Shown piece by piece: positions 43,412 to 52,237 of a stretch of DNA of 64,000 nt. The stretch comes from Sulfobacillus thermosulfidooxidans DSM 9293. GTDB taxonomy: Bacteria; Bacillota; Sulfobacillia; Sulfobacillales; Sulfobacillaceae. The stretch is from contig NZ_FWWY01000001.1 in the NCBI RefSeq assembly GCF_900176145.1, positions 1,907,819 to 1,971,818 of the forward strand, written 5' to 3'. Position numbers and translations under genes: made by a program. The notes below the pieces were generated by a model. The model saw nothing but the letters and a program-made list of their open reading frames with translations, did not search any database and had not been told where the DNA came from. How positions within the stretch are numbered: position 1 is the first letter of the stretch; the number at the start of each line of letters is the position of its first letter.

Positions 43412-44605
43412 TTATGATGCGGACTTTGTCGCTGGCAAATGGGCACGAATATCTTGAATCAATGCATTCCAAGAAATCAGGCCCTCATGATACCACAGAA
43501 TTCGACCCGATGAAGAAACTAACACTTGCGTTGGGATCCCAGAGACGCCGTACAAGTCGGAGATTTTGCCATGATTGTCGAGGGCGACGGGAAAGGGCAG
43601 ATGAAGGCGGTTCGCATAGGCCACCACATGGGCTGTCGAGGATTCCGATAAACGTAAATCAATTGCCACAACCTGCGGATACTGGGGATGGCTTTTATCC
43701 CAGCGTTCAAGATGAGCGAGGGTGGGCATTTCTTCTTGGCAATCAGGACACCAGGTAGCAAAGAAATCGAGAAGGCGAATAGGGCTACCAGAACCTACAC
43801 TCACTGAGCCACTCTTTCCCCCTGGCATGATGGCGGGAAGGGTAAATGAACGGTTGACGCTCTCGGAGGGACCAATGGTGGTGGGATAATAAGCGAGTTC
43901 ACGGGCTGGGGGAATCGTCAAAGCCGGATGGCCCGGAAGTAAAGGGACCACGTGCTCAAGAATATTATGGACCTGCGCTCCAATGGCTTTGGTGGAGGTG
44001 CTCGGCGAATTCAAATAGACCCAATGTTCATGTCCATGAGGGCCAATGACAAAAACCCCTGGGGTATGACTGATTAAGGAACCGTGAATAATTTGGGTCT
44101 GCATAAAATAGTGATGCCATACCGACGTCAGTTCGCTTGGCGTACCCGTGAGAAATTGCCAGTTATGAAGCATATGATTGGCCTTTGAAAATTGGTAAAC
44201 ATCTTGTGTTGAGGTCGTTACCGGATTGGCATTAATAGCGACAAAGGCCACTTGATTTTTATGGGAACCCAGGTCATATTGGACGTTACGCATAATGACG
44301 GCCATCAAGGGACTGACGGTGTTGCCCGCACTATTGACAAAGCCCATAACTACAACTTTTCCACGAAATGATTGCATGGAGAACGGCTGGCCAAATTGAT
44401 TAGTCAACAGAAAATTGGGGGCAGGAATATCCTTGATGGGAGCACCTGGATCGACGGACGCTGGTTGACTGGGTGGTGTCGATACCGAATTTGGGTTGGC
44501 TGCAGCAATATGAACGGACGACACGGCTTTGTACACGGCAAAGCCGACCGCCATTAAGACAGCGAGAATTCCCAAAGAAATTGACCATAAAGTTGTTTTA
44601 CGCAT
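43412..44605 (-). CDS. Membrane-anchored protein with degenerate SCO-like and intact TlpA-like thioredoxin domains
   Basis: This 397-residue protein starts at the ATG ending at 44605 after GGAGG. Residues 5-27 are a membrane anchor. A first thioredoxin-fold domain (about 60-210) resembles SCO1/SenC (FLLTNQFGQPFSMQSFRGK and VVVMGFVNSAG) but lacks the CxxxC copper site, which reads NSAGNTVSP. The second (about 260-390) is TlpA/ResA-like, with the redox motif DFFATWCPDCQEEMP and GVSGIPTQVLV. It follows ccdA by 26 bases, so it likely receives electrons from CcdA to reduce extracytoplasmic disulfides, for example in cytochrome c or cytochrome oxidase maturation. Confidence 0.85.
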   Translation of the reverse strand: MRKTTLWSISLGILAVLMAVGFAVYKAVSSVHIAAANPNSVSTPPSQPASVDPGAPIKDIPAPNFLLTNQFGQPFSMQSFRGKVVVMGFVNSAGNTVSPLMAVIMRNVQYDLGSHKNQVAFVAINANPVTTSTQDVYQFSKANHMLHNWQFLTGTPSELTSVWHHYFMQTQIIHGSLISHTPGVFVIGPHGHEHWVYLNSPSTSTKAIGAQVHNILEHVVPLLPGHPALTIPPARELAYYPTTIGPSESVNRSFTLPAIMPGGKSGSVSVGSGSPIRLLDFFATWCPDCQEEMPTLAHLERWDKSHPQYPQVVAIDLRLSESSTAHVVAYANRLHLPFPVALDNHGKISDLYGVSGIPTQVLVSSSGRILWYHEGLISWNALIQDIRAHLPATKSAS

Positions 44606-44631
44606 AACGGAAAACCTCCACTTTACTTGCT

Positions 44632-45333
44632 TTAAGAAAAGACCGTTGACAGGCCGGGACCAAGAAGCCAGTACCAACCCAGATAGAAGGCGGCAGCAAC
44701 CATAATCACCGCACTGAGCTTTTGCACCATCGGTGTAATTTGATTGATCACCCGTTCGACCACGCTGCGGGTGATGGCGGTCACGGTCGATAATCCGGTA
44801 ATGACAGTGGCTACGCCCAGGGCAAATGCTCCATACACGGTCACTGCCGATGTGCCAGGATGGTTGAGGCTTTCACTCACCACTACCATAAAAACAGGAA
44901 GGCTACAGGTTAGGGAAACCATGCCATAACTCAGTCCGTAAGCGATAAAGGCGGGAGCACTACCCCGTTCAAAAGTGCGTTGTAATCCACTTAACGCTTT
45001 TGTACCGGGAATGGTGCCAAACGTTAGGGATCCCCGCCAGGTAAAAATGGCGAGAATGATTAGAAATAAGGCCATCAACAATGAAAAAATCGGGACGATT
45101 TGAAACAAGATATGACCAATCAATGAGAGCACAAGACTGGCCACTCCAAAAATCACCACGACACCGAATGACGTTAACAGCCCGGCTTTGATTCCCCCTG
45201 TCCATTTCCAGTGACCAGGATTTACACGTCCTGAAAGCAGATACAATAAATAGGATGGCAACAATGCGACCCCACAGGGATTAAAGGCGGTGACTAAACC
45301 CGCTGAATACGCTAATAACTCAGGAATCGACAA
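44632..45333 (-). CDS. ccdA: CcdA/DsbD-type thiol-disulfide transmembrane electron carrier
   Basis: The 233-residue protein has six helices with the two conserved cysteines in TAFNPCGVALLPSYL near residue 19 and SLTCSLPVFM near 140. It begins with a TTG codon ten bases after GGAGGG; the nearby ATG is out of frame. CcdA carries electrons from cytoplasmic thioredoxin to outward-facing thioredoxin-like proteins, and the next gene encodes such a partner. Confidence 0.9.
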   Translation of the reverse strand: MSIPELLAYSAGLVTAFNPCGVALLPSYLLYLLSGRVNPGHWKWTGGIKAGLLTSFGVVVIFGVASLVLSLIGHILFQIVPIFSLLMALFLIILAIFTWRGSLTFGTIPGTKALSGLQRTFERGSAPAFIAYGLSYGMVSLTCSLPVFMVVVSESLNHPGTSAVTVYGAFALGVATVITGLSTVTAITRSVVERVINQITPMVQKLSAVIMVAAAFYLGWYWLLGPGLSTVFS

Positions 45334-45541
45334 GAATCATAAACCCTCCTTGACACGGCAAATGTTTTCCGAAAAATTTGTGTCCCGCAAAATACCATCC
45401 GAGAGCTCAAAGGTTCTATCGCAAAAACTTTTTTGTGGGCTCCGAACACATTACACTATGTCGATTATGGCTCAAAGAGATGAAGTCGGCAACGGACAAA
45501 ACTGGATCCGTTGCGATTCAGTTTAAGAGGGTGACCCGCGA

Positions 45542-46825
45542 TTAATGGGACTGTGGTACAAGATGGGTGATGAGATAAAGAGCACGGGTGACACTGGGAG
45601 CATACACGGCATAAGCTTCTTTGCCAATCATTCGCTCGGCAACAGCATGGATGTGGGGAGCACCCGCAAGGGTAATCGCGGAGACAGAAATCCCGGGCGA
45701 TGAAGTCACTGGAGCCACATCTCCGGCTTTGAAAATAATTTGAGGAGAGAGTGTGGCGGGGACAGCCACGTTCTCAGGCAGGGGTTTGAGGGTTTTATAC
45801 CACGAAATTTCATAGCCGCCTGGATTGACCCAACTATCCACGCTCATATAATAAGTTCCGGTGCGTGGGTGAACCGGTGGCAGGTAGATGGGAATATGGC
45901 ATTGACTAATAATTAATTGCTCGTTCGAGGGCAATTTGCGTGGTAATGGGGAAATATGGGACTGGACCTTGGTGGCATAAGTGAGCTGCTGGTGATCTTT
46001 AACAGGCACTTCAACCACTTTAATATCTTTCACGCTTAAGGAATGAGCGGTTTTCATGACAATGTTTTCCTGAAGGGTAAACGGTTCGGCTTGGCTTAAG
46101 CGATTTTGAGACATGGAATGTGCCATCCATAGTAATTCTTGATTGCTCACGCTCATTTGAGAGACCAAAATCGTATAAATTTTGTGGTTATGCGGCCAAG
46201 CGACGGCTTTATCATGCCCTAAATCCGGCCAAAGCCAGAAGGTTTGTCCAAATTGGTGCACAATATGGGGATGCGGCCATAACGGATATTGGCTGGCCGT
46301 CACCATAAGCCACGGGCTTTGTTTCGCAAAGTAAGAGAAATTGGCGGAGGTAACCTTGGAAGCGACCTCGGGCCGCGCGGCTTTTTCACTCACTCCGATC
46401 CAATAATTCACTCGGGTATGCGTATCTTTGGGCATGGAATCTAACACGGGCAGGTGGCTCACTCCCGCTCGCACGACGGGAATCATGCCCGTCGCACTCA
46501 ACGTCTCGTTAAAAGGCAAGAAGGAGGGCACGGGGATAACCGGCTGACGGTGGCCCTTAAGAAAGGGTATGGCAAAATTGAGAATTTTGGCGGCGCCTTG
46601 TAACTGCGTCGAGGGTGGGGATGCATGATGTGACCACGGAGCCCATACACTAAGAACAAAAGCCCCGGCCACAGCCACACTGCCCACGGTCAAAGACCAT
46701 GACGCCCAAAACGGACGGGATTTGGGGGCTTTGACCGCATGAAATTCCGGAATTGGCATGGCATCCAGATGTTGATGGAGGGCCATGCGAATTTTTTCTT
46801 CCCACTCGTCAGATTTTCTCGTCAT
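45542..46825 (-). CDS. Probable anti-sigma factor with one membrane helix and large outer domain
   Basis: The protein has 427 residues from the ATG ending at 46825 (GAGGTGG six bases upstream), overlapping the sigma-factor gene by 17 bases. A short cytoplasmic part (about 40 residues, EWEEKIRMALHQHLDAMP) is followed by a helix near 43-65 (SLTVGSVAVAGAFVLSVW) and about 360 residues outside the cell, with no domain I recognise. It lacks the HxxxCxxC zinc motif of ZAS anti-sigma factors. Gene overlap with an ECF sigma factor and the membrane layout make an anti-sigma role likely but unproven. Confidence 0.7.
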   Translation of the reverse strand: MTRKSDEWEEKIRMALHQHLDAMPIPEFHAVKAPKSRPFWASWSLTVGSVAVAGAFVLSVWAPWSHHASPPSTQLQGAAKILNFAIPFLKGHRQPVIPVPSFLPFNETLSATGMIPVVRAGVSHLPVLDSMPKDTHTRVNYWIGVSEKAARPEVASKVTSANFSYFAKQSPWLMVTASQYPLWPHPHIVHQFGQTFWLWPDLGHDKAVAWPHNHKIYTILVSQMSVSNQELLWMAHSMSQNRLSQAEPFTLQENIVMKTAHSLSVKDIKVVEVPVKDHQQLTYATKVQSHISPLPRKLPSNEQLIISQCHIPIYLPPVHPRTGTYYMSVDSWVNPGGYEISWYKTLKPLPENVAVPATLSPQIIFKAGDVAPVTSSPGISVSAITLAGAPHIHAVAERMIGKEAYAVYAPSVTRALYLITHLVPQSH

Positions 46826-47351
46826 GTTCTGCCACCTCATTTCGTAGCCGTTTGCGTAACCGTGCCAATTTTGTTTTTAAAAAGGTTGGAGTCGTTCCTA
46901 AAATGGCGGCGGCTTCTTTTAACGGTAAGTCATGATAATACACTAAAACAATGGCCATCCGGTCTTTGGGTTTCAATTGGGCGATGGCATCCCACAAAAC
47001 CGATAATTCCTGATTATCGTCGGAAATTTCGGCATGACCGGATTTCGAGAGGCTGAGCTGGTCAAATAATTGCACCTCTTGCCGCTTTTGACGAAATACA
47101 TCCATGCATAAATGGGCTACCACCGTAAAGAACCAACGCAAAGGCGGCGATTTCCCATGGTGTTTGTCCCGGTATACCACATAACGGGCTAAACACTCCT
47201 GAACGATGTCTTCGGCCAAGGAGTAATCGCGAATCGTCGCCCAGGCAAAACGGAAAAGTTTAGGTGCAATCTGCTCAACAAATTCCACCAGTTCTTCTTC
47301 GCTGGCGGGATGCGCAACGGATAACTTGTTTACAGCTTTCGCGAAAATCAC
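46809..47351 (-). CDS. ECF-type RNA polymerase sigma factor
   Basis: This 180-residue protein has region 2 (RFAWATIRDYSLAEDIVQEC near residue 33) and region 4 (LKPKDRMAIVLVYYHDLPLKE near 125, quoted to PLKE only in part, then AAILGTTPTFLKTKLARLRK). The GTG start ending at 47351 is seven bases from the acyltransferase stop, with AAGGCGAG close by. It overlaps the putative anti-sigma gene. It is unusual in being fourth in an operon of transport and acyl-activation genes; it may control that operon or respond to its product. Confidence 0.88.
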   Translation of the reverse strand: MIFAKAVNKLSVAHPASEEELVEFVEQIAPKLFRFAWATIRDYSLAEDIVQECLARYVVYRDKHHGKSPPLRWFFTVVAHLCMDVFRQKRQEVQLFDQLSLSKSGHAEISDDNQELSVLWDAIAQLKPKDRMAIVLVYYHDLPLKEAAAILGTTPTFLKTKLARLRKRLRNEVAEHDEKI

Positions 47352-47358
47352 CTCGCCT

Positions 47359-48450
47359 TTATGGCAAGGCTGGAACCGGTGCCCGTTTTGGAGATGGCGC
47401 CGTAGAACGACCGGTGAGCCATAACCCCAGCCTTGTTCGCGATATCATTCTAATAATGCCTAAAGAGACGCTGGCTGTCACGATGACGCTGAAAATGTCG
47501 GCGATTGGCCACGGCATTTGGGTCGATGCCCATGAGGCTAAAGGCTCTAAAATCATGGGATGAATTAAGTAAATGCCGAGGGAGAACGTAGAAAACTGCC
47601 TTAATAGCCGTGACACCCAGCCCCATTTGACGGCTTCGGTAATCATTTGTCCAGCGACAAGCAAAAGGATAAAGGTCATAATCGAATAAGGTACCATGGC
47701 GGGCTGCAACACGCTTTGTGCCGTCATCAAATTTTTATGCTGGGCTGTCCATAAAAAGACGCCCGTGAGCATCATCCAACTTAATCCCCACCCGCTCGCA
47801 ATAATCAAACGGTGCTGCCGTAAATATTGGGACACGTTTTCCCATGATGTGGCCAATAATCCGCCGGAGACAAAATAGAGGCTATAAGTCCAGACTTCAA
47901 GACCCGTGTAGTGATTGATGCCTTGAGGGTGAGGTCCCAAACCATAGGCATCATAAGCCATTAGAAGCAGTTCGAAGATAAACACTGTCGTCCAAAGGCG
48001 CCAGGGTCTCTCCCGGTAGCGGCGAATCATCCAAAAAAACACCGGGAAGATCGTATAAAATTGGATAGTAATCAACAAATAATAGAGATCAAATGCAGCA
48101 TTACCCGTGGGCAAATCCGAAAGAGTCGTGGTGATAACAAGCCCAGGATGTTGCCATCCTAAAGTCCTGACGACATAAATAAGACTCCATAAAATATAGG
48201 GTATGCCGATAATGGGATAACGCTTGCGGAAAAATTTTTGCCAGGAGGTGGGCCGGTTCAACATGGCTTGCGTTAAGACCAGCCCCGTAATAGCCATAAA
48301 GACTTCTCGAGTAAAATGTAAAAGGGTGAGCACATAGGCACTGGGAAGTGTGCGCCCTTCGCTGGTAAACCAGGTTGCATGGACCATAATGACCCCTAAT
48401 ATCGTTAAACCCCGAACCATATCAACCGCCATTAACCGTTGAGATTTCAT
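47359..48450 (-). CDS. Membrane acyltransferase, family 3 (OafA/YrhL-like)
   Basis: The 363-residue protein has about ten helices and opens with the family signature RLMAVDMVRGLTILGVIMVHA (the first 20 residues suffice: LMAVDMVRGLTILGVIMVHA). FTREVFMAITGLVL near residue 48 and the RKRYPIIGIPYILWSLIY segment are typical. Family members transfer acyl groups to sugars, lipids or peptides at the membrane. Its start overlaps the ligase stop (ATGA), suggesting the ligase makes the acyl donor it uses. Confidence 0.85.
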   Translation of the reverse strand: MKSQRLMAVDMVRGLTILGVIMVHATWFTSEGRTLPSAYVLTLLHFTREVFMAITGLVLTQAMLNRPTSWQKFFRKRYPIIGIPYILWSLIYVVRTLGWQHPGLVITTTLSDLPTGNAAFDLYYLLITIQFYTIFPVFFWMIRRYRERPWRLWTTVFIFELLLMAYDAYGLGPHPQGINHYTGLEVWTYSLYFVSGGLLATSWENVSQYLRQHRLIIASGWGLSWMMLTGVFLWTAQHKNLMTAQSVLQPAMVPYSIMTFILLLVAGQMITEAVKWGWVSRLLRQFSTFSLGIYLIHPMILEPLASWASTQMPWPIADIFSVIVTASVSLGIIRMISRTRLGLWLTGRSTAPSPKRAPVPALP

Positions 48451-49862
48451 GCGTGCTGCCCTTCTTTCACCAGCATCCGGCGCTGAATTTTCCCTGTTGC
48501 ATTTTTGGGTAAGGTCTCCACAAAGTGATAGGCGACAGGACGCTTGTAAGGGCTTAAATGTTGGGCCGATAACGCCCTAAGAGCCTCTTCAATTCCCGGA
48601 TCCGATGACACAATATAGGCCACGGGTTCTTCCCCCAAAACGGGATGGGGACGGCCTACCACCACACATTCTTGTACGTGTTTGTCCTTGTAAAGAATTT
48701 CTTCCACTTCACGGGGAAAAATGCTCTCGCCTCCCCGTTTAATAACGTCTTTGACACGCCCGTCGAGATATAAATACCCGTCCTCATCAAAATGCCCGAG
48801 ATCGCCCGTGTGATACCATCCCCCTGTCATTTCGGATAGAGCCCAGGCGTTCATGGGAAGGTGAGGTCGGATGACGGGACCACCCTTAATCCATACTTCA
48901 GAATTAATCAAGCGCACCATAATATTTTTGGGGCGACCCACGGAACCAGCAGGCCCTCTTTGTGGCCACGGGCCTGAGTTAACGGTGATAGGACCGCAAG
49001 CTTCTGTCATTCCATAACTTTCGATGACGGGAACGCCAAATTGCTCTTCGATGCGTTCTAAAAGAACATGACCTAAAGGCGCGGAAGCCGAGCGAATAAA
49101 GCGAAGGGACGCGTGGTGAGAGGAATGGTTGATGGGCAGCTGATGGGCTTGGTGCGATAATATGGTTAAAATTGTGGGAACGGCATTGATCCAGTTCACG
49201 TCCTGTTTTTGCACTGTATGCCAAAAGGTCTGCCGGTTAAACGGATCTAAAATTAGGGTACCCCCAGCTAACAAGGTGGAAAACAGCGCGATGACGGGTG
49301 CATTCACATGAAAAAGAGGGAGAGGTGAATACCCGCGGGAATCTTCCGTTAAGTGATGGGTTATTTTCACGGTGAGCGCTTGTTCCCATAGTTGGTCTTG
49401 TGCCAACCCTACGGTTTTGGGGTGTCCCGTTGAACCAGAAGTAAAAAGAATCATCCCACTAAAATTGTCTTGCCAGGGTTCTTCAGCGTCTTTGATCTCG
49501 GATTCTAATGTCCAACGGGAGTTAACGACCTGGTCTTTGTCATCATGAAGCCACACTCCGCAGTGAGCCTCTTTCAATTGACGCTGCCATTCTTCCCGAG
49601 GAGCTTTGGGATTTAACGGAACTACCACAAGATCCCAGGCTAACAAGGCTAAAAGCGCCACAGCAAAATGGCAGGGCGAGGAACTACTGAGCCCGATGGC
49701 TTGGTACGATTTGATGTGGTGCTGTTTCAAGAGACGATGAATTCGTTCGATTTCAAGCCCCACCTGTTCATAGGTTCTTATGGTGTCATCACAAACTAAA
49801 AACGGCTGGGTTAAATCGGGTAACGTCTTCCACCTGTTTACCGCCCAGTTATTTAGCGTCAT
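48447..49862 (-). CDS. AMP-forming acyl-CoA synthetase/ligase
   Basis: This 471-residue ANL-superfamily enzyme has the P-loop ILFTSGSTGHPKTVG near residue 152, ESYGMTEACGPI near 285, WYHTGDLGHFDEDGYLY near 365 and the C-terminal lysine in PKNATGKIQRR near 457. It adenylates a carboxylic acid and passes it to CoA. At 471 residues it is short for long-chain enzymes, closer to MenE or medium-chain types. It lies between an MFS carrier and an acyltransferase, so the acid may be imported, activated and transferred by consecutive genes. Confidence 0.88.
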   Translation of the reverse strand: MTLNNWAVNRWKTLPDLTQPFLVCDDTIRTYEQVGLEIERIHRLLKQHHIKSYQAIGLSSSSPCHFAVALLALLAWDLVVVPLNPKAPREEWQRQLKEAHCGVWLHDDKDQVVNSRWTLESEIKDAEEPWQDNFSGMILFTSGSTGHPKTVGLAQDQLWEQALTVKITHHLTEDSRGYSPLPLFHVNAPVIALFSTLLAGGTLILDPFNRQTFWHTVQKQDVNWINAVPTILTILSHQAHQLPINHSSHHASLRFIRSASAPLGHVLLERIEEQFGVPVIESYGMTEACGPITVNSGPWPQRGPAGSVGRPKNIMVRLINSEVWIKGGPVIRPHLPMNAWALSEMTGGWYHTGDLGHFDEDGYLYLDGRVKDVIKRGGESIFPREVEEILYKDKHVQECVVVGRPHPVLGEEPVAYIVSSDPGIEEALRALSAQHLSPYKRPVAYHFVETLPKNATGKIQRRMLVKEGQHA

Positions 49863-49940
49863 GTGCTTGCTCCCTCTCAGTTTTTTGATGGGTTAAGGTC
49901 TTTTGGTTCCATATTTTTGGCACGTGGGATTCCGGGTTCG

Positions 49941-51170
49941 TTACCCGAGAGCAACGAACCGGGTTTCTTTAGCCCACAGACTTAAAGCCAATGTGCCTAA
50001 CCAGGTGACGACCGCAGTAAAAATCAAGGTGCCTTGAATACCGGAAGAACTTAAGGCCTGCTCTAAGATAAATGGAGCTAAGGCCCCGCCCAGGAGTCTG
50101 GCAACCGCCTCAGCGGCTCCCACGCCTTTGGCTCGAATGGCTGTCGGATATTGTTCCGCGGTGAAAATTTTCATCGCGGGATCGACAGCAATGCCAAAGA
50201 ATGAAAGAGCCATACCCGCCATGATAATTTCGGAAAACTGGTGAAGATGGCTGAAGAGCAAGGCAAACAATCCAGCGAAAAGAGTAAAGCTAATCAACAG
50301 CGGTTTCCGTCCAATCCGTTCGACGAGCCATGATTCGATGAGTTTGCCAGGAATGGATGCGGCCATGATGAGGCTGGCGAACAAGAGGGCTTGGTGGGCG
50401 CTAAATCCTTCTTTTAGAAGCAGCGACGGCATAAAGTTCATAATCACATAAAACAGCAGCAGCACAGCAGGGAAGGCAATCCAAAGCATGGCGGTTTGCC
50501 GTCTGAAACTTGGAGACCAGAGTTTTTTGGAGGATGGGATCACAGTAGACCTGGCTTGTGAGAGCCAAATGGGCGATTCAGGGACAAACCGCATAATCGC
50601 AATTAAAACCAGATAGCCAAATGCGCCCAGATAAAACATTTGGCGCCAACCTCCAGGCCCTCCATAGGGAATGATCCACGATGCTAGAAAGGGACTAGTG
50701 AAATAGCCAATGGATAAAAAGGCATCCAGAATGCCGGCGGATCGCCCTCGCGCATGTGACGGTGCCAATTCGGCAAAAAGCGTATAGGGGATAGGAAAGG
50801 TCGCTCCTAATCCCAGACCCGCTAAAAAGCGCAGGATGACAAACATTGTCCAATTGTCCGACAAACCAGTGAGGACGGTGAGTGTCGTATAATAGAGCAA
50901 TGCAACTTGCAAAATGGTCTTGCGTCCCAATTTATCCGCTAAAACCCCTGCGGGGAATACGCCTAAGGCTACGCCCAGTGTCGGAGCAGAAACGACCGCA
51001 CTGCTTTGCCAGGCACTCAAGTGCCACTGGGCCTTCAACGATGGCAAAACTGTTCCGGTTAACCCAATGTCATAGGCTTCAATGAGCCAGACCATCGCGA
51101 CTAACAATAATAAACCCCATAAGCGCCACGACAGTGGATGTGGACGGTTGTTCTTCATTTCAGCAATCAC
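49941..51170 (-). CDS. MFS transporter (aromatic/organic acid type)
   Basis: The 409-residue protein has twelve helices with MFS loop motifs GVLADKLGRKT near residue 78 and RFLAGLGLGATFPI near 118, plus VERIGRKPLLI in the second half. The pattern (IEAYDIGLTGTVLPSL) is like organic-acid carriers. The GTG start ending at 51170 follows AGGAG. It is first in the operon with the AMP ligase and acyltransferase, so a carboxylic acid is the likely substrate. Confidence 0.85.
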   Translation of the reverse strand: MIAEMKNNRPHPLSWRLWGLLLLVAMVWLIEAYDIGLTGTVLPSLKAQWHLSAWQSSAVVSAPTLGVALGVFPAGVLADKLGRKTILQVALLYYTTLTVLTGLSDNWTMFVILRFLAGLGLGATFPIPYTLFAELAPSHARGRSAGILDAFLSIGYFTSPFLASWIIPYGGPGGWRQMFYLGAFGYLVLIAIMRFVPESPIWLSQARSTVIPSSKKLWSPSFRRQTAMLWIAFPAVLLLFYVIMNFMPSLLLKEGFSAHQALLFASLIMAASIPGKLIESWLVERIGRKPLLISFTLFAGLFALLFSHLHQFSEIIMAGMALSFFGIAVDPAMKIFTAEQYPTAIRAKGVGAAEAVARLLGGALAPFILEQALSSSGIQGTLIFTAVVTWLGTLALSLWAKETRFVALG

Positions 51171-51463
51171 CAGACACGGCTCCTTTTCGGTTTTATCCTA
51201 AAGACGAAAAAAATGGAGTTTGGTAATCACGGTCCAAAAAATTTTTTTGTGGAAAATCATGCAGAAAAAACCAAGGAGATAAAAGCACACGACGAGGCAT
51301 GTTTTTTGACAACGGGGCGCAACTGCACTTTAAAATCGGGCTGGTGACATGGTTAAAATTACAGCTTTTCATTCGGAGGCGACTTGCTACAATGAAAGGC
51401 ATGGATAAGAAAGGCATGGATATTTGATAAGGGTCTCGGGGAATTTGTGAGGAGGAATACGAG

Positions 51464-52237
51464 TTGAGTCAGCATAGTGGTTCGGATCAGCCCTTATGCC
51501 CAAAATGCCATCAGTTGGTACGTAGTGAGGATCGTTTTTGCCGGTACTGCGGTTATAAACTGACAAAACCGACCGCCACCTCTTTACGGAGCGGGCGCCC
51601 CACGAAACGTCTTCCCCGGTGGCCATTTGTATTGGTAGGACTGGCATTGGGGGTGGTGGCAGCGTTCGTTATCGGCAACCAGTCTCAAAAGGTCGCAACC
51701 ACAGGCTCTTTCAAGAAGTCCTCTCTGTCACAGTCACATCAGCATTCTTCGCCACCGGTATCTCAATCTTCTCCGTCACCCTCTCCCTCTTCGTCTCCGA
51801 GTCCAAGTCCCTCACCGAGTCCAAGTCCCTCGCCCAGTCCGAGTCCATCCCAGAACCCCAGTCCGAGTCCATCGGCACAACCATCGTCGCAAGCTCAGAA
51901 CTTTGTCAGCGTTCAGAATGTCTATCATGGCACCACATTAGGGTTGAGCCTTCCTACGGTGCTCGATACGGTCGAGTTATCCAGTCCGGGGGCTTGGCAA
52001 TGGGGAAATAAAAAAGGGCAGGTCAGTATGGATGTGGTGGCGCACAAACCGTCGAGCATTTCTGACGCTTTAGGCCCTAGCACTTTTGGTACACCCATTA
52101 TTCCTGAGGGGAAGAGAGTCTCTCAAACCATTTATGTCAAATGGCCGGGACAGGGATGGGTAGAAGTGTCCATGCAGGTTCCCCAAAAACATGAAGCGTG
52201 GCTGTCGACGATCGCGCAAAGTATCCATATCGGTTAA
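51464..52237 (+). CDS. Zinc-ribbon membrane protein with Ser-Pro spacer
   Basis: The protein starts at a TTG, eight bases after GAGGAGG, and has 257 residues. In order: a zinc ribbon (CPKCHQL ... CRYCGYKL, residues 12-33), a basic linker, a membrane helix near 55-70 (FVLVGLALGVVAAFVIG), a Ser-Pro dipeptide tract near 100-140, and a C-terminal domain of about 90 residues that I do not recognise. The ribbon faces the cytoplasm and the Ser-Pro tract would span the cell wall, holding the last domain away from the membrane. Zinc-ribbon plus helix plus outer domain recalls DUF-type stress sensors of Bacillota, but the function is unknown. Confidence 0.8.
   Translation: MSQHSGSDQPLCPKCHQLVRSEDRFCRYCGYKLTKPTATSLRSGRPTKRLPRWPFVLVGLALGVVAAFVIGNQSQKVATTGSFKKSSLSQSHQHSSPPVSQSSPSPSPSSSPSPSPSPSPSPSPSPSPSQNPSPSPSAQPSSQAQNFVSVQNVYHGTTLGLSLPTVLDTVELSSPGAWQWGNKKGQVSMDVVAHKPSSISDALGPSTFGTPIIPEGKRVSQTIYVKWPGQGWVEVSMQVPQKHEAWLSTIAQSIHIG
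51766..51885 (+). repeat. Ser-Pro-coding direct repeat tract
   Basis: Units such as GAGTCCAAGTCCCTC and CCGAGTCC recur through this stretch, coding about twenty Ser-Pro dipeptides in the zinc-ribbon membrane protein. Such tracts change length readily by slippage. The spacing is too short and regular for a CRISPR array. Confidence 0.8.

Follow-up and report, generated by a model that had tools for sequence, protein, structure and literature searches.

An operon in Sulfobacillus thermosulfidooxidans that links a putative ECF sigma/anti-sigma pair to predicted genes for acid import, activation and acyl transfer

We analyzed a stretch of 64 kb (the window) from the 3.86-Mb genome of the acid-loving bacterium Sulfobacillus thermosulfidooxidans DSM 9293 (genome G000). 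Five genes on its minus strand were found at the places and in the order given by the original prediction, and four of the five products gave Pfam matches to the expected families. These are an MFS transporter (49941-51170, 409 aa; MFS_1, 5.5e-51), an AMP-forming acyl-CoA ligase (48447-49862, 471 aa; AMP-binding, 1.9e-46), an Acyl_transf_3 (AT3) membrane acyltransferase without an SGNH domain (47359-48450, 363 aa; 1.9e-35), and an ECF sigma factor with regions 2 and 4 (46809-47351, 180 aa; Sigma70_r4_2, 9.8e-12; Sigma70_r2, 2.3e-07). The last gene (45542-46825; longest ORF 45542-46840) encodes a single-pass membrane protein of 427 aa, a likely anti-sigma factor. The MFS and ligase genes are separated by 78 nt. 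The compact linkage claimed for the last four genes is borne out: the ligase and acyltransferase genes overlap by 4 nt, 7 nt lie between the acyltransferase and sigma factor genes, and the sigma factor gene overlaps that of the membrane protein by 17 nt, given the ATG start at 46825. A hairpin on the minus strand 3' of the last gene (45480-45520; fold of 45470-45545, -20.4 kcal/mol, z -2.3), which has no T run, is a possible transcript end of the operon.

The gene divergent from the operon promoter (51464-52237, plus strand) encodes a zinc-ribbon protein with one membrane span and a Ser-Pro repeat tract. Downstream of the operon, on the minus strand at 43412-45333, lies a gene for a 233-aa membrane protein with a CcdA-like start, as judged by eye, overlapped by a gene for an SCO1-like/thioredoxin-like fusion. 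According to the gene maps, this pair is shared with genome G003 and was not seen at the other sigma-linked loci. Rfam and tRNA scans of the 64-kb window gave no matches. A general sigma-70 scan of the operon returned 16 sites against 7.6 expected, none of which was used.

The MFS protein is nearest to the aromatic acid/H+ symport group, scoring 221.4 bits with TIGR00895 and thus below the cut-off of 418.55; none of the 25 NCBIfam models among the matches listed has a cut-off that it reaches. We propose that it is an acid importer. The ligase combines the AMP-binding domain with a C-terminal domain carrying the GK lysine, as in AMP-forming acyl-CoA ligases, and its catalytic motifs TSG, YG..EA and TGD as well as K458 are invariant in 27 relatives. 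Its family profile aligns best to 5ie0, and its nearest solved relatives are oxalate-CoA ligases. Two of three residues that we take to be oxalate ligands in the plant enzyme align with identical residues in the ligase, and one does not. This likeness does not fix the substrate of the ligase.

The acyltransferase matches PF01757 with 123 bits against 31 and carries an R13-x10-H24 motif, the helix 1 signature of AT3 proteins; among 25 relatives H24 is invariant and R13 nearly so. According to PMC9833829, conservation of R-x10-H in AT3 domains is absolute. R77 is likewise invariant in our alignment, which does not include OafB, and the window protein has no exact RXXR, the motif of AT3 helix 3, at this place. 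A structure model (pLDDT 82) aligned over 300 residues with HGSNAT (8vlv_B; Z 19.0, rmsd 4.7) and, with Z 13.1, with GWT1, while the next, unrelated hit had Z 5.4; Foldseek alone gave a best E of 0.024 for the same model. The modeled protein thus shares with HGSNAT the fold that marks the TmAT superfamily, and these two matches make it very probable that the acyltransferase is a transmembrane acyl-CoA transferase. Its acceptor would be a part of the envelope.

The sigma factor exceeds the cut-offs for Sigma70_r2 (30.9 bits vs. 24), Sigma70_r4_2 (44.8 vs. 25.7) and TIGR02937 (71 vs. 42.9). It appears to consist of regions 2 and 4 only, within about 180 aa, which places it in the ECF class. The best match, at 91.3 bits, was to the SigE family model TIGR02983; this is below the cut-off of 141.55, and the protein was not filed there. 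Orthologs of the sigma factor were found in seven genomes.

The membrane protein likely starts at the ATG at 46825, which lies behind GAGGTGG, and not at 46840. Its features are a conserved LH..LD motif at the N-terminus, a single hydrophobic segment (in windows beginning at residues 42-45) and about 360 aa outside the cell. Class I zinc anti-sigma factors carry an N-terminal HxxxCxxC zinc motif. As had been noted from the sequence, the membrane protein is not of this kind: its sole cysteine is residue 309. It does show the features of membrane anti-sigma factors in the wide sense, as it adjoins the sigma factor gene and has a single span and a cytoplasmic N-terminus, the orientation being deduced from the charge near the span. 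Neither this protein nor the seven family members matched any Pfam family, the latter even at E 10. A suspected likeness of the outer part to DUF4367 was not supported: no family member matched it at E 10, and the domain was found in only one of 41 related genomes, a genome of another family. AlphaFold2 with the seven-member alignment gave a poor model (pLDDT 41). Among 61 related genomes the protein is present in G000, G003, G009, G017, G018, G024 and G026, with two further short and weak matches. A profile search of 154 genomes of the class found the same seven genomes plus two weak partial matches, and among 398 genomes drawn from the phylum it gave G000 and G009 only.

We subsequently compared gene maps of 40 fetched regions and the window. 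The complete order MFS-ligase-acyltransferase-sigma factor-membrane protein occurs in the window and in G003, G017, G024 and G026. Since all five genes are found together in five genomes and four of them in a sixth and probably a seventh, this arrangement is not due to chance. In G018, the MFS, ligase, sigma factor and membrane protein genes lie on one contig without an acyltransferase gene. In G009, the contig ends after the sigma factor gene, again with no acyltransferase gene in the operon, and the membrane protein gene is located at the end of another contig together with a sigma factor fragment; this is probably the same four-gene operon split over two contigs. The acyltransferase is thus missing from two of seven sigma-linked operons, which indicates that the sigma factor follows the importer and ligase more closely. 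The genus is represented by eight genomes (G000-G007), and the sigma factor ortholog, the acyltransferase and the membrane protein are present in just two of them, G000 and G003.

The three enzyme and transporter genes are more widespread. At the thresholds used, relatives of the acyltransferase, ligase and MFS protein were found in 34, 37 and 31 of the 61 genomes, respectively, and the triad occurs without the sigma factor in many other genomes; G017, G024 and G026 each have a second, sigma-less triad. In the ligase tree, the sigma-linked ligases (six rows) form one clade with support 100/96, requiring one change. Therefore, a single joining of the sigma pair to this ligase branch is enough to explain the pattern. 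The G026 ligase was left out of the alignment and tree. At this locus (L091, 5291-8090), the sigma-linked ligase is split into frames of 195 and 302 aa, by a frameshift or an assembly error.

The motif (G/C)TGATTACC-N15/16-CGT(C/T) is common to the upstream regions of the seven sigma-linked operons. In the window, where TGATTACC-N15/16-CGT(C/T) falls at 51229-51203, it corresponds to a predicted ECF promoter on the minus strand upstream of the MFS gene (51203-51230), with GTGATTACC as -35 element, a 15-nt spacer and CGTC as -10 element, and this is the only match in the 64 kb, against 0.03 expected by shuffling. The motif precedes the first module gene in 7/7 sigma-linked operons, compared to 0/26 sigma-less module loci. 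Of 41 regions, among them the window, this count covers the 33 in which two or all three of the module genes share a strand, and one of the 26 loci, L095, has a ligase that is only a distant relative. The surroundings of the motif (60 bases before it, the spacer and 40 bases after it) show an ungapped identity near chance between the four lineages. A search of whole genomes recovered the operon site in all seven sigma-bearing genomes. In addition, an eighth genome, G030 (63% complete), which played no part in defining the motif, has it before an MFS gene at the end of a contig.

As background, this search gave between 0 and 5 sites in each genome. G018 has no strict site besides that of the operon, and G000 has two, of which the second lies antisense inside an ORF on contig 2. 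Seven of the eight other strict sites in the sigma-bearing genomes (loci L248-L255) are located inside an ORF; the G009 C220 site is inside an ORF and also just upstream of another gene, and the extra strict site in G003 is intergenic with a gene downstream. Upstream of the stand-alone acyltransferase genes of G018 and G009, matches to the motif were no better than in random sequence. The motif therefore resembles an ECF promoter that serves autoregulation and has few further targets, if any, and its perfect co-occurrence with the sigma factor gene suggests that the sigma factor itself reads it. The promoter common to the sigma-linked operons also gives good support to the claim that this sigma factor is tied to an acyl-transfer route. 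The control link itself is strong; the further claim, that the sigma factor controls envelope acylation, is conjectural, and the chief result against it is the lack of an acyltransferase in two of the seven sigma-linked operons.

In a wider survey, 80 acyltransferase loci from named records, spanning several families, were inspected, and a ligase gene was present within two genes of the acyltransferase gene in 45 of them; 13 of the 80, in which ORF calling found no acyltransferase, were counted as misses. In the Sulfobacillaceae maps, the ligase gene mostly overlaps or abuts that of the acyltransferase. A related MFS gene is present in 26 of the 45 ligase-linked loci, a gene for an SsuA-type binding protein in five, neither in 14, and both in none. 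The loci with an SsuA-family protein also encode a permease and an ATPase and belong to Lactobacillaceae, a Streptococcaceae bacterium and Neobacillus. This exchange of one importer type for another beside an unchanged ligase-acyltransferase pair is the strongest indication that the ligase receives its acid from the transporter. Together with the neighboring genes and the structure model of the acyltransferase, it supports the proposed sequence of acid import, activation and transfer. By comparison of gene neighborhoods, it is well supported that importer, ligase and acyltransferase are a wider Bacillota module for import, activation and outward transfer.

Acyltransferase-ligase pairs adjoining SsuABC-type ABC importer genes were seen in lactic acid bacteria and Neobacillus (L206, L207, L200, L214 and L183), which suggests the same pathway in non-acidophiles. 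With a Lacticaseibacillus ligase as query, four plasmid records were retrieved, all below 60% identity. L111, L113 (cluster c66), L150 and L153 encode membrane proteins of about 710 aa that resemble each other and begin with FAVRHYWLVIILW or alike. Their genes lie just upstream of SGNH-MFS-ligase-acyltransferase genes or of the acyltransferase gene alone, and the proteins are possibly a transporter linked to the module.

Two further functions recur in the ligase-linked loci: a signal-anchored SGNH/GDSL protein (16/45) and an OmpR-type response regulator with a histidine kinase (10/45), a two-component system in place of the sigma pair. SGNH proteins from Sulfobacillaceae and from Alicyclobacillaceae-like genomes can be aligned, with Ser43 and His212 invariant in 10/10 sequences; in a Pfam search with three Sulfobacillaceae members, one exceeded the family cut-off, another fell short of it, and the third had no match. 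The family is present in 11 of 42 related genomes. It is absent from the sigma-bearing genomes searched, namely G000, G003, G009, G017, G018 and G024 (G026 was outside the draw). We therefore assume that the final transfer step proceeds here without such a second enzyme.

From these data we moderately favor a single autoregulated operon for sigma-controlled acid import, activation and acyl transfer across the membrane. As the sequence evidence suggests, the ECF sigma factor would read GTGATTACC-N15-CGTC before the MFS gene and so control the importer, ligase and acyltransferase as well as itself and its membrane partner. The latter would hold the sigma factor via its conserved first 25-40 residues until the outer domain meets a signal. 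The MFS protein would bring in a carboxylic acid, the ligase would convert it to the CoA ester, and the AT3 protein would pass the acyl group across the membrane, most likely to a surface glycan or lipid; these three steps find their support at the level of the module. In the sigma-bearing clade, the AT3 protein would act without an SGNH partner, which its relatives carry as a separate protein. Several results weigh against this reading: two of the seven sigma-linked operons lack the acyltransferase, with chance-level motif matches before the stand-alone acyltransferase genes of these genomes; the MFS protein scores below all listed cut-offs; the likeness to oxalate-CoA ligases does not settle the acid; the membrane protein has a poor model; and the SGNH family is absent. 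More tentatively, and with somewhat less than even confidence, we suggest that the envelope sensor which switches the module differs between lineages. In Sulfobacillaceae it would be an ECF sigma/anti-sigma pair that has its own promoter code, and in Alicyclobacillaceae-like lineages a two-component system.

The genes could also be read as a catabolic or detoxifying system. The MFS protein would then import a weak acid and the ligase would activate it, so that it can be broken down or disposed of; the sigma factor would respond to this acid or to stress resulting from it, and the acyltransferase would be a passenger with only a loose link to the system. The two sigma-linked operons without an acyltransferase and the nearness of the MFS protein to aromatic acid symporters would fit this reading, but we regard it as unlikely in view of the close association of ligase and acyltransferase genes in 45 of 80 loci from several families; moreover, no degradation genes recurring with the triad were seen in the gene maps. 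Less probable still is a cassette for tailoring and export of a small molecule, with the acyltransferase acylating a secreted metabolite that is then exported by the MFS protein. MFS proteins can be exporters, and AT3 proteins such as Asm19 are described as acylating secreted products as well (PMC9558356), but a replacement of the MFS protein by importers with a binding protein in five loci, never in co-occurrence, points to uptake.

The membrane protein, in turn, could be a cotranscribed surface protein or accessory enzyme and the sigma factor be controlled otherwise. A protein that combines the lack of a zinc anti-sigma motif and of any known domain with a poor model leaves room for this view. 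However, its gene lies directly downstream of the sigma factor gene, with an overlap of 4 or 17 nt in six genomes (starts chosen by alignment), full-length copies occur, in the genomes searched, only where the sigma factor gene is present, and the protein has a single-pass topology with a conserved cytoplasmic end. We thus consider this view about as improbable as the export cassette, and the membrane protein is likely an anti-sigma factor, as assumed in the favored autoregulated operon.

The closest precedent for such an operon is sigV-rsiV-oatA-yrhK of Bacillus subtilis, which is transcribed by its own sigma factor. It, too, combines an AT3 protein with an ECF sigma factor and with a membrane anti-sigma factor whose outer part acts as a sensor (PMC8287880). 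Control of an AT3 enzyme by such a pair is therefore not new in kind. Unlike the operon studied here, the sigV operon as described there includes no importer or ligase (PMC8287880), and its OatA is an AT3-SGNH fusion using acetyl-CoA (PMC9558356), whereas our AT3 protein lacks the SGNH domain. No sensing domain is visibly shared with the sigV system, since our membrane protein has no Pfam match. OafB, OacA and OatA share with the AT3 protein the Acyl_transf_3 domain, R-x10-H and the transmembrane acyltransferase fold; the latter differs in adjoining its own CoA ligase and importer, and in its relatives the SGNH part is a separate gene.

In DltABCD-dependent D-alanylation of teichoic acids, an adenylating ligase feeds an envelope-modifying membrane acyltransferase, as proposed here, but this system uses a carrier protein, an MBOAT enzyme and D-alanine from inside the cell. 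The MBOAT-SGNH pairs PatA/PatB and AlgI/AlgX combine a membrane acyl carrier with a separate SGNH transferase (PMC9558356), as do the SGNH-bearing relatives of our module. The membrane enzyme of these pairs belongs to a different family than the AT3 protein, and they are not known to have a dedicated acid importer and ligase.

What is new here is thus an importer and a ligase dedicated to the route, together with the promoter code, the unrecognized membrane partner and the wider module. A literature search on ECF sigma factors in Sulfobacillus found no paper, and a search for the AT3, AMP-binding and MFS module with Alicyclobacillus found none either; related searches, judged by titles and the beginnings of abstracts, turned up no report of a module like this one. 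In the available text of a review on AT3 proteins, the word "ligase" is absent, and the question is raised whether AT3-only proteins need an SGNH partner (PMC9558356). The separate SGNH gene beside a stand-alone AT3 gene bears on this question, since a direct comparison is possible between families that have it and families that lack it. If our reading is true, bacteria would be able to modify their surface with acyl groups acquired from outside the cell and not from internally made acetyl-CoA. The promoter code, in turn, would define a clean sigma circuit in which there are very few candidate targets to test.

The source genome also encodes a second ECF sigma factor (L002, G000:C1:3276099-3279569), followed, with a 4-nt overlap, by a gene for a protein of at least 488 aa. 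This protein has one likely span and a long outer part, and by eye the two resemble another sigma/membrane protein pair.
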